Shown: piece after piece, positions 14,450 through 17,750 of the stretch | How positions within the stretch are numbered: position 1 is the stretch's first letter | Layout: the number at the start of each line of letters is the position of its first letter | Source: Bacilli bacterium | GTDB lineage: Bacteria > Bacillota_I > Bacilli_A > RFN20 > CAG-826 | Direction of reading: 5' to 3' | DNA length: 64,000 nucleotides | Assembly: GCA_022653695.1 (NCBI GenBank) | Contig: JALCSW010000002.1 | Coordinates: 1 to 64,000, forward strand | Translations under genes and position numbers: made by a program | The notes under the pieces: model-generated | Databases searched by the model: none | Told to the model about the DNA's origin: nothing | What the model saw: only the letters and a program-made list of their open reading frames with translations

Positions 14450-14812
14450 ATGGCGAACCGCCAAGGGCGCGTCAAGGCCCTCATCCAGAAAAACCTGAGC
14501 GACATCCTCACGCGCGAACTCCATAATCCGCGCGTGGGCCTACCTTCGGTCAGCGAAGTCGCGGTCAATAGCGATTACAGCCTCGCCAAGGTCTACGTGA
14601 GTTTTCTCGGCGCCAAATACCCCCGCCAATGCCTCGAGGAGTTGAACCGCTGCAAAGGCTACGTCCGCTCGTCCCTCGCCAAGAAGATGGACATTTACAA
14701 GGTGCCCGACCTCCTTTTCGTCTATGACGACCAGTTCGATAGGGCCGCCCGGCTCGAGGAGGCTTTGGCCCGCGAGGAGAAAAGCCTCGCCGACGCCAAA
14801 AAAGGCAAATGA
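14450..14812 (+). CDS. rbfA: Ribosome-binding factor A
   Basis: 120 residues with the KH-type RbfA fold: MANRQGRVKALIQKNLSDIL, then LPSVSEVAVNSDYSLAKVYVSFL, then a LFVYDDQFDRAARLEEAL C-terminus matching the family's DxSxxxxxxIxxLL end. RbfA acts in late 16S rRNA maturation, the 5' helix region. Last gene of the infB operon, with a strong terminator 8 bases beyond the stop. Confidence 0.95.
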   Translation: MANRQGRVKALIQKNLSDILTRELHNPRVGLPSVSEVAVNSDYSLAKVYVSFLGAKYPRQCLEELNRCKGYVRSSLAKKMDIYKVPDLLFVYDDQFDRAARLEEALAREEKSLADAKKGK

Positions 14813-14819
14813 AAGAAAA

Positions 14820-14847
14820 GGACCCGATTCGCCTCGGGTCCTTTTTT
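14820..14847. terminator. Bidirectional terminator between rbfA and ttcA-like gene
   Basis: GGACCCGA (14820-14827) pairs perfectly with TCGGGTCC (14834-14841), with a 6-nt loop, followed by six T. A-rich sequence on the other side makes it work for the convergent minus-strand gene as well. Confidence 0.9.
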
Positions 14848-14855
14848 CATCGCCC

Positions 14856-15971
14856 TTATTTTTCGATTCGCCTAATGTAGCGTTCCGTTTTGCGGCCCGG
14901 CTCTTTCATCTTAAGGAATCCCGCTTCCGATTTGGTTCGCTTTGAGCAGCCTAAAAGCACGAAAGTGACGGGATTCGCCGTTTTGCTGAGGATATCCACG
15001 ATCTCCTGAACCGCGATGGTTTGGGCTTTTTGCGGCCCCGAAAGACCCTCGATGACGAACCGGTGGCCGCTGAGGCGGCGATAAGCCAGCGTCCCCACGC
15101 GCTCGTGGCGGCGCAAAATGAGATAGAGGGACTCCCCTTCCCTGAGGGGCTTCCCCGCGAAAGGCGTTCCGACGATATCCTGAGCCGATATGATGGGTTT
15201 CAAAGCGTATGAGTGATCGAGGGCGCTTTCGAACTCCAGCGCGGAGAAATAGAGTTTGAACGGGGCGTAATTAGTGAGCATGCTTCGGAAATTCCCCTTG
15301 GCTTCCGGCCATTGCGCGTAGATGGACCTCAGCAGGTCTTTCGTGGCTTGGCGGTCCGTGAAGCCGTTGGCCGGGCACTGGCTTTTCAAAACGGGCATCC
15401 TCTCTTCCTCGGCGAGGAGGCTCAGGTCCCTCTCGTAGCAATAGATGAGGGGCCGAATGAAGGTCACGTGGGCCCGTTCCAGCCGCATCTTGGGCTCGAA
15501 AGTGGCGACCCTTCCCCCATGGATCATGTTCATGAAAAGCGTTTCCGTCGCGTCGTCGCTATGATGGGCGAAGGCCACTTTGTTGTAGCCGAGCTTTTTG
15601 GCGACGGCGTTCATGGCGGCCTTCTTCATCCGCGAGCAGATGCTGCAGGGAAGATGGCGGCCGCCTTTCGCGTGGGCCTTCAGGATATCGTAGACGAAAC
15701 GGGAATCGCTCACGTAGAGCTCGCTTCCTAGCGAATGGCAGAACGCCTTGAGCGCGGAGAGGTCCGGGTTTCCGAAACCCAGGTCGAGATAGACCGGCTT
15801 CACTTCGAAGTTCTTCGCGGCGAAGCGGCCGTAGAGAGAAAGGGCGCGCAGCAGGCAAAGGCTGTCTTTGCCGCCCGAGAGGCCGACGAGGATTTTATCC
15901 CCCTCGTCGATGAGCGAGAAGTCGCGGTCGGCCTTCCGCAGGGCCGCGAGGACATGTCGAATGTATTTCAT
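14856..15971 (-). CDS. TtcA-like PP-loop tRNA thiolation enzyme
   Basis: Start set at 15971 (MKYIRHVL), since the longer frame runs into truB. 371 residues. The ATP-PP-loop SGGKDS is at 32-37; Cys109-x-x-Cys112 and Cys199 have the spacing of the three [4Fe-4S] ligands of TtcA (CxxC, then a third Cys ~87 later). TtcA makes 2-thiocytidine at tRNA position 32. TilS lacks these cysteines, so I prefer TtcA-like over TilS. After residue ~265 there is a ~105-residue C-terminal part (GESLYLILRRHERVGTLAYRR...) not expected in E. coli TtcA. Divergent from truB through a shared palindromic promoter. Confidence 0.75.
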   Translation of the reverse strand: MKYIRHVLAALRKADRDFSLIDEGDKILVGLSGGKDSLCLLRALSLYGRFAAKNFEVKPVYLDLGFGNPDLSALKAFCHSLGSELYVSDSRFVYDILKAHAKGGRHLPCSICSRMKKAAMNAVAKKLGYNKVAFAHHSDDATETLFMNMIHGGRVATFEPKMRLERAHVTFIRPLIYCYERDLSLLAEEERMPVLKSQCPANGFTDRQATKDLLRSIYAQWPEAKGNFRSMLTNYAPFKLYFSALEFESALDHSYALKPIISAQDIVGTPFAGKPLREGESLYLILRRHERVGTLAYRRLSGHRFVIEGLSGPQKAQTIAVQEIVDILSKTANPVTFVLLGCSKRTKSEAGFLKMKEPGRKTERYIRRIEK

Positions 15972-15990
15972 GGGGTAAAAGCGCCTCCGA

Positions 15991-16004
15991 GACATTATAA
16001 TGTC
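15991..16004. promoter_or_regulatory. Palindromic bidirectional -10 element
   Basis: A perfect 14-bp palindrome (GACATTATAATGTC) puts TATAAT on both strands (15996-16001 plus; 15999-15994 minus). It lies in the 40-base gap between the divergent ttcA-like and truB starts, so both genes can be read from one overlapping -10. No strong -35 is visible on either side. Confidence 0.65.
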
Positions 16005-16011
16005 CCTAAGT

Positions 16012-16860
16012 ATGGAAAGCGGCATTTTATTGCTCGACAAAGAGGCGGGGATGACTTCCCGCGACGTCGATAACCGGTTGCAAAAGGAATTCGGGACGAA
16101 GCGCGTGGGGCACCTCGGCACTCTCGACCCTTTCGCGACTGGCCTTTTGCTCGTGGGGGTGGGCCGGGGGACCAAGTTCCTGCCCTATGTCGACGATTCG
16201 AGAAAAAGCTATTTGGCGACCCTCCGGCTGGGCGAGACGACCTCCTCGCTCGATCCCGACACCCCGGTGATCGCCCGAAAAAGCGTGCCGAGCCTCACGA
16301 ACGGGGATATCGTCAAGGTTTTTTCTTCTTTTAGGGGGAAAGGCGAACAGGTTCCGCCGATGACGAGCGCCATAAAAGTGAACGGGGAGCCGCTCTACAA
16401 AGCCGCCCACGCGGGCAAAGTCGTCGAACGGAAGCCGCGAAGCGTCGAGATTTTCTCGCTGAATCTCATTGAAACGAAAGAAAACGCCATCGTCTTTTCG
16501 ACCACGGTTTCGAGGGGGACCTACATCCGCGTTTTGGGGAGCGATATCGCCGCGCGGCTCGGCACCGTAGGGTACCTCACGTCTTTGCGGCGCCTTTCGA
16601 TCGGGCCTTTTCTCGTCGCGGACGCCAAGAAGCTCGCCGCCATCGGGGAGGAGCCCTTCATCGACGGGACTTTGGCCATCACCACGATGAAGCACGTCGA
16701 GATCGACGAGGACGATCTCGATCGCGCCAAGAACGGGGCGCCCTTCGACCTCGCCGAGGATTACGGGGCGAAAGTGCTGCTCACGCTCCATGGGGAGGCC
16801 GTCGCCGTTTATAGGCGTTTCGCGGACACCCATTACCGGGCCGAAAGGGGGCTTTTCTAG
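16012..16860 (+). CDS. truB: tRNA pseudouridine(55) synthase TruB
   Basis: 282 residues from the ATG at 16012; an in-frame ATG at 16000 lies inside the -10. The N-terminus MESGILLLDKEAGMTSRDV and the catalytic motif GHLGTLDPFATGLL (nucleophile Asp in TLDP, ~residue 41) identify TruB, which makes Psi55 in the tRNA T-loop. The C-terminus has the short PUA-like region. There is no Shine-Dalgarno, and the -10 begins 16 bases before the ATG, so the mRNA is probably leaderless or nearly so. Followed by ribF with a 1-base overlap, the usual truB-ribF pair. Confidence 0.95.
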   Translation: MESGILLLDKEAGMTSRDVDNRLQKEFGTKRVGHLGTLDPFATGLLLVGVGRGTKFLPYVDDSRKSYLATLRLGETTSSLDPDTPVIARKSVPSLTNGDIVKVFSSFRGKGEQVPPMTSAIKVNGEPLYKAAHAGKVVERKPRSVEIFSLNLIETKENAIVFSTTVSRGTYIRVLGSDIAARLGTVGYLTSLRRLSIGPFLVADAKKLAAIGEEPFIDGTLAITTMKHVEIDEDDLDRAKNGAPFDLAEDYGAKVLLTLHGEAVAVYRRFADTHYRAERGLF

Positions 16861-17750
16861 TGGAACGGATCTATCTTGATTACCGCAGGATCCGGCCTCG
16901 CGAAGGCAAACTCACCCTCCTTTTAGGCAGTTTCGATGGGGTCCATCGCGGGCACAGGCGCCTGATTGAGGAGGGCAAGAAAGCCGCCGAAGGCGATCTG
17001 GGGGTCTTGCTTTTCGCCGAGAATCCGGCCGCTTTCCTGCCAAACGGGAAAAGCCATGAGGTTCTGACGAGCCTTGAGGACAAACTCCGCCTTTTCGAAG
17101 CGGAGGGCCTCGACTGCGCCTTCATCCTCAAGGTCGACCGCGCTTTCTTCGATCTGTCCCCGGAGGCCTTCCTCGAGCGGGTCCTCAAGCCGCTTCATCC
17201 GGAGAGTGTGGTCGTGGGCGAGGATTACACGTTCGGACGCGGGGGCTCGGGCCGCGCGGATCTTCTTTCGGGGTCTTTCGTGGTCGCGGAGGTTCCGCTT
17301 CTTGACTACCAAGGGGCGAAAGTCTCCACTCAGCGCATCATCGCCGATTTGACGAACGGGGACATCGCCTCCGCGAACCGCCAATTGGGGCGCGACTACG
17401 AGATCCACGGCACGGTGGGGCACGGCTTCGAGAACGGGCGCCGGATCGGCTTTCCGACGGCGAACCTTGAGACGAAGACCCCCTATGCCCTTCCGAAAGT
17501 CGGCGTGTATGGGGGCCTCGTCTTCCTGCGTGGGTTGCCTTATCGATCCCTCATCAACATCGGGACCAATCCGACCGTGGGGTTATTGAGGCGGCCCCGG
17601 GTCGAGTGCTACCTCAAGGGTTTCGAAGGCTCGATTTACGGCGAGACGATCTACGTTTCTTTCCATGAGCGGATCCGCGATGAGATCAAATTCGCCTCCC
17701 TGAGCGACCTTGAGCGGCAACTCAAGAAAGATATCGCCTCGCTTGGGTAG
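16860..17750 (+). CDS. ribF: Riboflavin kinase/FMN adenylyltransferase
   Basis: 296 residues starting with GTG that shares a base with the truB stop. The N-terminal adenylyltransferase domain has LGSFDGVHRGHRRLI (~22-36) and the later VVGEDYTFGRGGSG; the C-terminal riboflavin kinase domain (~175-296) has GRRIGFPTANLE with the kinase PTAN motif. It converts riboflavin to FMN and FAD. These cofactors serve flavoproteins found nearby, such as the nitroreductase and the FAD oxidoreductases. Confidence 0.95.
   Translation: MERIYLDYRRIRPREGKLTLLLGSFDGVHRGHRRLIEEGKKAAEGDLGVLLFAENPAAFLPNGKSHEVLTSLEDKLRLFEAEGLDCAFILKVDRAFFDLSPEAFLERVLKPLHPESVVVGEDYTFGRGGSGRADLLSGSFVVAEVPLLDYQGAKVSTQRIIADLTNGDIASANRQLGRDYEIHGTVGHGFENGRRIGFPTANLETKTPYALPKVGVYGGLVFLRGLPYRSLINIGTNPTVGLLRRPRVECYLKGFEGSIYGETIYVSFHERIRDEIKFASLSDLERQLKKDIASLG

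Follow-up and report, generated by a model that had tools for sequence, protein, structure and literature searches.

How are two divergent tRNA-modification genes transcribed when no more than 40 nt separate their start codons? The locus that raises this question lies in a 64,000-nt stretch of DNA (the window) from a 1.29-Mb genome bin of four contigs that is 79% complete (G000). As judged from open reading frames and family profiles, a gene for a TtcA-like PP-loop protein of 371 aa (minus strand, 14856–15971, ATG at 15971) and truB, which encodes a tRNA pseudouridine(55) synthase of 282 aa (plus strand, 16012–16860), diverge from a gap at 15972–16011, taking the start of truB to be at 16012. 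The plus-strand product was assigned to TruB at 200 bits, which is above the cut-off. The minus-strand product exceeded the cut-off for the Pfam PP-loop family (49.9 bits) and scored 165.4 bits against the NCBIfam TtcA profile, below the cut-off of 272, and hence we refer to it only as TtcA-like; it is 92% identical to the corresponding protein of the closest named locus, JALCDB010000002.1. Four genus mates (G034, G026, G036, and G014) have two TtcA-like matches each, both about 28–31% identical to that of the window, and most other genus mates have a single, closer copy.

Directly downstream of truB is ribF (plus strand, 16860–17750), the inferred product of which is a bifunctional riboflavin kinase/FAD synthetase. 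In other bacteria truB is commonly transcribed from the infB–rbfA operon. Here the end of rbfA is at 14812, and between the 3' ends of rbfA (plus strand) and the TtcA-like gene (minus strand) is a terminator-like hairpin (14816–14845), so that truB–ribF would need a promoter of its own. The hairpin is not evidence by itself, as 12 terminator-like sites were found in 5.5 kb when 6.5 were expected from shuffled sequences.

The gap contains a 14-bp perfect palindrome, GACATTATAATGTC (15991–16004), and we confirmed that, as had been noticed in a sequence-only reading of the window, it displays TATAAT on both strands. The plus-strand hexamer (15996–16001) is the predicted −10 element of truB and lies 10 nt upstream of the ATG at 16012, in keeping with the presence of TATAAT close upstream of truB in relatives. 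The minus-strand hexamer (15994–15999) is the predicted −10 element of the TtcA-like gene and lies 22 nt upstream of its ATG, in keeping with an overlapping minus-strand TATAAT in relatives. The two hexamers have four base pairs in common, and the symmetric −10 thus presents on both strands the TANNNT sequence by which bidirectional promoters are recognized. A second in-frame ATG for truB, at 16000, overlaps the −10. A palindrome of such length is uncommon in shuffled versions of the gap (p = 0.002, 1000 dinucleotide shuffles), and the exact 14-mer occurs once in the 1.29-Mb, 79% complete genome, although at up to three mismatches it was not rarer than chance in the 64-kb window (1 found, 1.05 expected). 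The site was absent from the output of a simple sigma-70 scan, which requires a −35 element, and TTGACA-like hexamers 16–18 nt from the core showed no clear enrichment on either side among 29 loci.

We propose that the palindrome is, very probably, a bidirectional housekeeping promoter in which one symmetric −10 serves truB–ribF to the right and the TtcA-like gene to the left. RNA polymerase containing the main sigma factor would recognize the same A+T core in either orientation, producing a truB–ribF mRNA rightward and a ttcA-like mRNA leftward; a recognizable −35 is absent and would not be needed, and no regulator would be required. Judging from the positions of the hexamers, the divergent start sites would be about 21–23 bp apart: with a spacing of 6–7 nt, transcription of truB is predicted to start at 16008–16009 (plus strand), 3–4 nt before the ATG, and that of the TtcA-like gene at 15986–15987 (minus strand), with a leader of 15–16 nt. 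The two orientations of the polymerase would be mutually exclusive. Since two polymerases cannot fit the site at once, sharing would mean exclusion rather than coupling; expression of the two genes need not be tied, and the original supposition that it would be is not supported. The geometry of the site, its recurrence, its link to tight divergence, and the existence of two modes of leader length are seen in the sequences; the use of both directions and the positions of the start sites are predictions.

To what extent does the shared core recur? The regions upstream of truB were compared in 138 genomes of the order, of which 137 were usable (L034 was dropped, as its contig ends without a truB start). 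At 77 of the 137 usable loci a TtcA-like gene is divergent from truB within 130 nt (larger gaps were scored as not divergent, and gaps of more than 66 nt as not tight), and these yielded 76 distinct gaps, one being identical to another. Overlapping or abutting −10-like hexamers on the two strands were found in 42 of the 76, in the forms ATTATAAT (29 gaps), ATTATACT (five), ATTATATAAT (four), ATTATAAAAT (two), ATTATAGAAT (one), and ATTATATATAAT (one). The ATTATACT, ATTATAAAAT, and ATTATAGAAT forms have TATAAT on the minus strand and a merely TATAAT-like hexamer on the plus strand, and some of the 42 loci (L057, L066) have, in addition, a separate TATAAT closer to truB. Palindromes in the 76 distinct gaps exceeded those of shuffled sequences at p ≤ 0.01 in 19 cases and at p ≤ 0.05 in 24, for a combined P of 5e-15, which ignores kinship and is indicative only. 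A quickly built tree of 75 loci, which omitted one row whose ttcA was short, required at least 17 changes of the shared state, and 34 of the 76 gaps have no counted two-strand core. Thus, the shared core is recurrent rather than strictly conserved.

Other symmetric forms were seen by eye in some of the 34 core-less gaps and were left out of the counts. Five ttcA/truB gaps (L114, L155, L163, L167, and L221), also outside the shared-core count, contain AATAAT-TAT-ATTATT or a near version of it. Genus mates that lack a TtcA-like gene next to truB (L019–L024, L028, and L029) have AATCATTTATAATGATT or a near copy of it around the truB −10, which may be what is left of a promoter once shared. In outgroup loci (the Erysipelotrichia/Erysipelotrichaceae records L043–L047, and L261) the −10-like boxes appeared by eye to be separate. 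In a search across the class truB was present in 239 of 247 genomes, and from it nine further loci were read beyond the set for the order.

The predicted start sites imply unusual leaders. The truB box, at 10 nt from the ATG, is too close to leave space for a leader with a Shine–Dalgarno (SD) sequence, the arrangement by which leaderless genes are recognized, and truB in the window is probably leaderless, with a leader of about 4 nt. The TtcA-like gene differs: its box is at 22 nt, beyond the limit of about 12 nt used for leaderless genes, and between box and start codon is GGAGG (15984–15988, minus strand), which SD-like motif scoring marks as its likely SD sequence. This motif is 12 nt before the ATG, a long spacing, and is predicted to sit at the extreme 5' end of the ttcA-like mRNA, the roughly 16-nt leader of which would begin at the SD sequence. 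The comparison among relatives speaks for the very short leaders originally expected, but in the window the two sides are unequal, with predicted leaders of about 4 nt for truB and of about 16 nt, with an SD sequence, for the TtcA-like gene.

Relatives have the same kind of core between the two genes, and there, from the sequence, either leader can be short or long regardless of the other. At 43 loci, which have 86 sides, the spacing between core and start codon was bimodal, with 45 sides at 5–12 nt and 41 longer, these mostly at 19–38 nt (three sides are at 15–17 nt and none at 13, 14, or 18 nt), and the two modes were alike on the ttcA and truB sides. An SD-like motif was present on 28 of the 41 longer sides, as compared to an average of 16% after shuffling, and on one of the 45 short sides, although this last contrast is weak because most short sides have no room for an SD sequence. 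At five loci with gaps of 22–26 nt (L013, L026, L089, L143, and L106) both genes are of the leaderless type, and gaps of 22–27 nt leave no room between the start codons for another promoter.

Leaderless-type starts are a minority in the source genome. In an approximate survey of 304 kb (the window and twelve 20-kb stretches, with 246 genes from a simple caller of our own) SD motifs predominated, and TAWAWT was located 6–10 nt upstream for 22 of 650 candidate starts that are in frame, as compared to none of 345 that are out of frame. In the source genome (L172, contig C4, about 1197–1215) and in G015 (L187), an ORF that we take to be recN has ATTATAAT 8 nt upstream of its ATG, again an arrangement of the leaderless type; at L172 there are possible starts on both sides of the site, the plus frame being doubtful. 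We also considered whether a shared symmetric −10 is a general design of the genomes of this group and rejected the idea: among 20 ATTATAAT sites inspected, one (L181) was between clearly divergent ORFs.

The symmetry of the shared sites extends beyond the 8-bp core. The letters of the flanking arms vary by lineage yet tend to complementarity, as illustrated by GACATTATAATGTC in the window, AACATTATAATGTT (L009), GATATTATAATATC (L011), TTCATTATAATGAA (L106), and TCATATTATAATATGA (L133). Over six positions in 27 distinct arm pairs (from 29 sites, merged if five letters per side were identical), matches per position were 0.549, as compared to 0.387 when arms were re-paired across loci (P 5e-5). 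The excess was confined to the first four positions and was small at the second; with one locus per genus (18 genera) the median P was 0.001 and the worst 0.013. At truB −10s that are not shared, arms compared in the 8-bp core register showed no excess (P 0.26), and arms centered on the hexamer matched at 0.341 versus 0.266 (P 0.019, runs of three or more in two of 41). A small held-out set, in which 29 loci gave 18 that were divergent within 130 nt and eight with ATTATAAT, showed a match of 0.562 versus 0.483 (P 0.25); in this set the arms of L220 duplicate those of L143, and L231 shares its arms with L238. Pooling all 37 loci gave the floor value of P, 5e-5, a result driven by the original sites. 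Nine hand-chosen pairs of near relatives showed four mirrored and three unmirrored double changes (P 0.14). We regard covariation of the arms as likely but not settled.

We prefer to explain the arm symmetry, unproven though this is, by selection for balance between two competing orientations. A fuller version, which we advance tentatively and regard as rather doubtful, the more so as generic sites are slightly symmetric too, is that evolution has kept twofold symmetry well beyond the −10, over about 16 bp, while the two arms drift in mirror image, since mutually exclusive orientations would need balance, and that the same box can replace both 5' leaders to create a two-gene control region of 22–27 bp.

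The alternative that survives best, possible if on the unlikely side, concerns the arms only and is compatible with a bidirectional promoter: template switching, which tends to make short palindromes perfect where they are not, would have used the bidirectional −10 as a seed. Such a process would account for arms whose letters vary between lineages while complementarity is kept, and a small excess of arm matches is indeed present at generic ATTATAAT sites (0.32 versus 0.239, P 0.010; 43 sites besides those of truB, from six genomes scanned). The excess at these same-core sites is, however, far smaller: symmetric runs of three or more occur at one of the 43, as compared to 15 of the 29 shared sites (and one of 41 unshared truB −10s), with the caveat for this control that many generic sites may be young or constrained by coding.

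Does the TtcA-like gene use the box at all? Conceivably truB alone does, the minus-strand TATAAT arising simply because TATAAT is nearly symmetric and the TtcA-like gene having its promoter in another place, such as within truB. TATAAT near the ATG of truB is indeed kept in many loci without an adjacent ttcA, and the 34 divergent gaps without counted two-strand cores point the same way. Nevertheless, among loci with TATAAT within 60 nt of truB, a minus-strand TATAAT overlaps or abuts that of truB in 31 of the 38 tight loci (gap of 66 nt or less) and in only six of the 41 others. (ATTATAAT is present in six of the 41 unshared truB loci, and among these L072, L073, and L154 have a divergent ttcA at 67–76 nt.) Moreover, the distances to the start codon fall into the same two modes for ttcA as for truB, and many of the long ttcA sides carry an SD-like motif. 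We therefore give little credence to exclusive use by truB. The claim of the sequence-only reading that one symmetric −10 serves two divergent genes is backed by this comparison together with the 42 shared cores among 76 gaps.

It is similarly improbable that the palindrome serves a dimeric regulator as an operator that overlaps the promoter, and that this regulator rather than the sigma factor sets the symmetry of the arms. A dyad of about 16 bp is a usual size for an operator, and the symmetry ends sharply after four arm positions. On the other hand, copies that would mark a regulon were not seen in three genomes: in the source genome (G000) the palindrome at up to two mismatches has two other sites, both weak and at two mismatches, as compared to one for a reversed control pattern; G108 has no copies at up to three mismatches; and G115 has one at two mismatches. 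We therefore rejected the idea of a palindrome regulon in these genomes. The variety of the arms, with 27 distinct pairs among 29 sites, and the absence of core-register symmetry at unshared truB −10s also argue against an operator; a local regulator with a single site is possible. Finally, an RNA hairpin, with transcripts beginning further upstream and the palindrome folding in the leader of each mRNA, is very improbable: base pairing, too, usually shows itself in arms that change their letters and remain complementary, but the center of the palindrome is mostly TATAAT-like, loci without a close ttcA retain TATAAT near truB with no core-register arm symmetry, and, if the −10 is used, both arms would never be on one transcript.

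A bidirectional promoter with a shared −10 has known counterparts. In the promoters described by Warman, Grainger, and co-workers in E. coli and Salmonella (PMC12825309, PMC10268837), one symmetric −10 likewise serves both strands, and the separation of 21–23 bp predicted here is, going by the excerpted text of these papers, inside the defining window of 7–25 bp (PMC10268837) and close to the common 23-bp class (PMC12825309). The same excerpts attribute such promoters to the −10 being nearly symmetric by nature and report that the E. coli examples tested had low basal activity and little interference, and that activation of one direction represses the other (PMC12825309). Unlike the E. coli and Salmonella promoters, the ttcA-like/truB core recurs at one named pair across an order, has leaderless-type starts for one gene or for both, and has arms that tend to symmetry; two-way transcription is, in our case, a prediction.

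Leaderless genes in Firmicutes are known as well. In the excerpted text of Zheng et al. 2011 (PMC3160421), leaderless genes have a Pribnow box before the start codon, like the TATAAT-like box 5–12 nt upstream here, and were found in 56 of 209 Firmicutes genomes (mean 4.2%, range 2.4–16.6), mostly in Lactobacillales and Mycoplasma; genes without an SD sequence, including those of Mollicutes, are treated in PMC5397173, as far as its excerpt goes. In contrast to those leaderless genes, the box described here is common to a divergent gene, and the excerpt of PMC3160421 does not mention this uncultured Bacilli lineage, for which leaderless-type starts are now added. Titles and abstract openings, with most subscription papers outside their range, yielded no bidirectional promoter for two leaderless genes and, likewise, no description of the ttcA/truB pair as such. 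Within that range, what appears to be new is the recurrence at one gene pair, the leaderless-type starts of one or both genes, and the covarying, lineage-variable palindromic arms, this last part not being settled. The ttcA-like/truB loci, where a symmetric box recurs across the order and the leader on either side can be reduced to almost nothing, constitute a natural series for asking if selection acts on symmetry as such and how a single polymerase site is divided between two orientations.

Finally, we note that the generic ATTATAAT site with a symmetric run of three or more is located, in G131, between divergent ORFs that we presume, from the sequence and without a family search, to be rqcH-like and gmk-like. 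In 21 of 30 loci these two ORFs diverge at a distance of 180 nt or less. We considered the pair as a second test case and rejected it: its −10s are, by eye, mostly separate and the letters of the dyad are rather fixed, and the pair thus tests something else. Often a TATAAT lies no more than about 10 nt from the ATG of the gmk-like gene and follows an inverted repeat that resembles ATAAATAnnTATTTAT (L192, L198, L200, L204, and L207).
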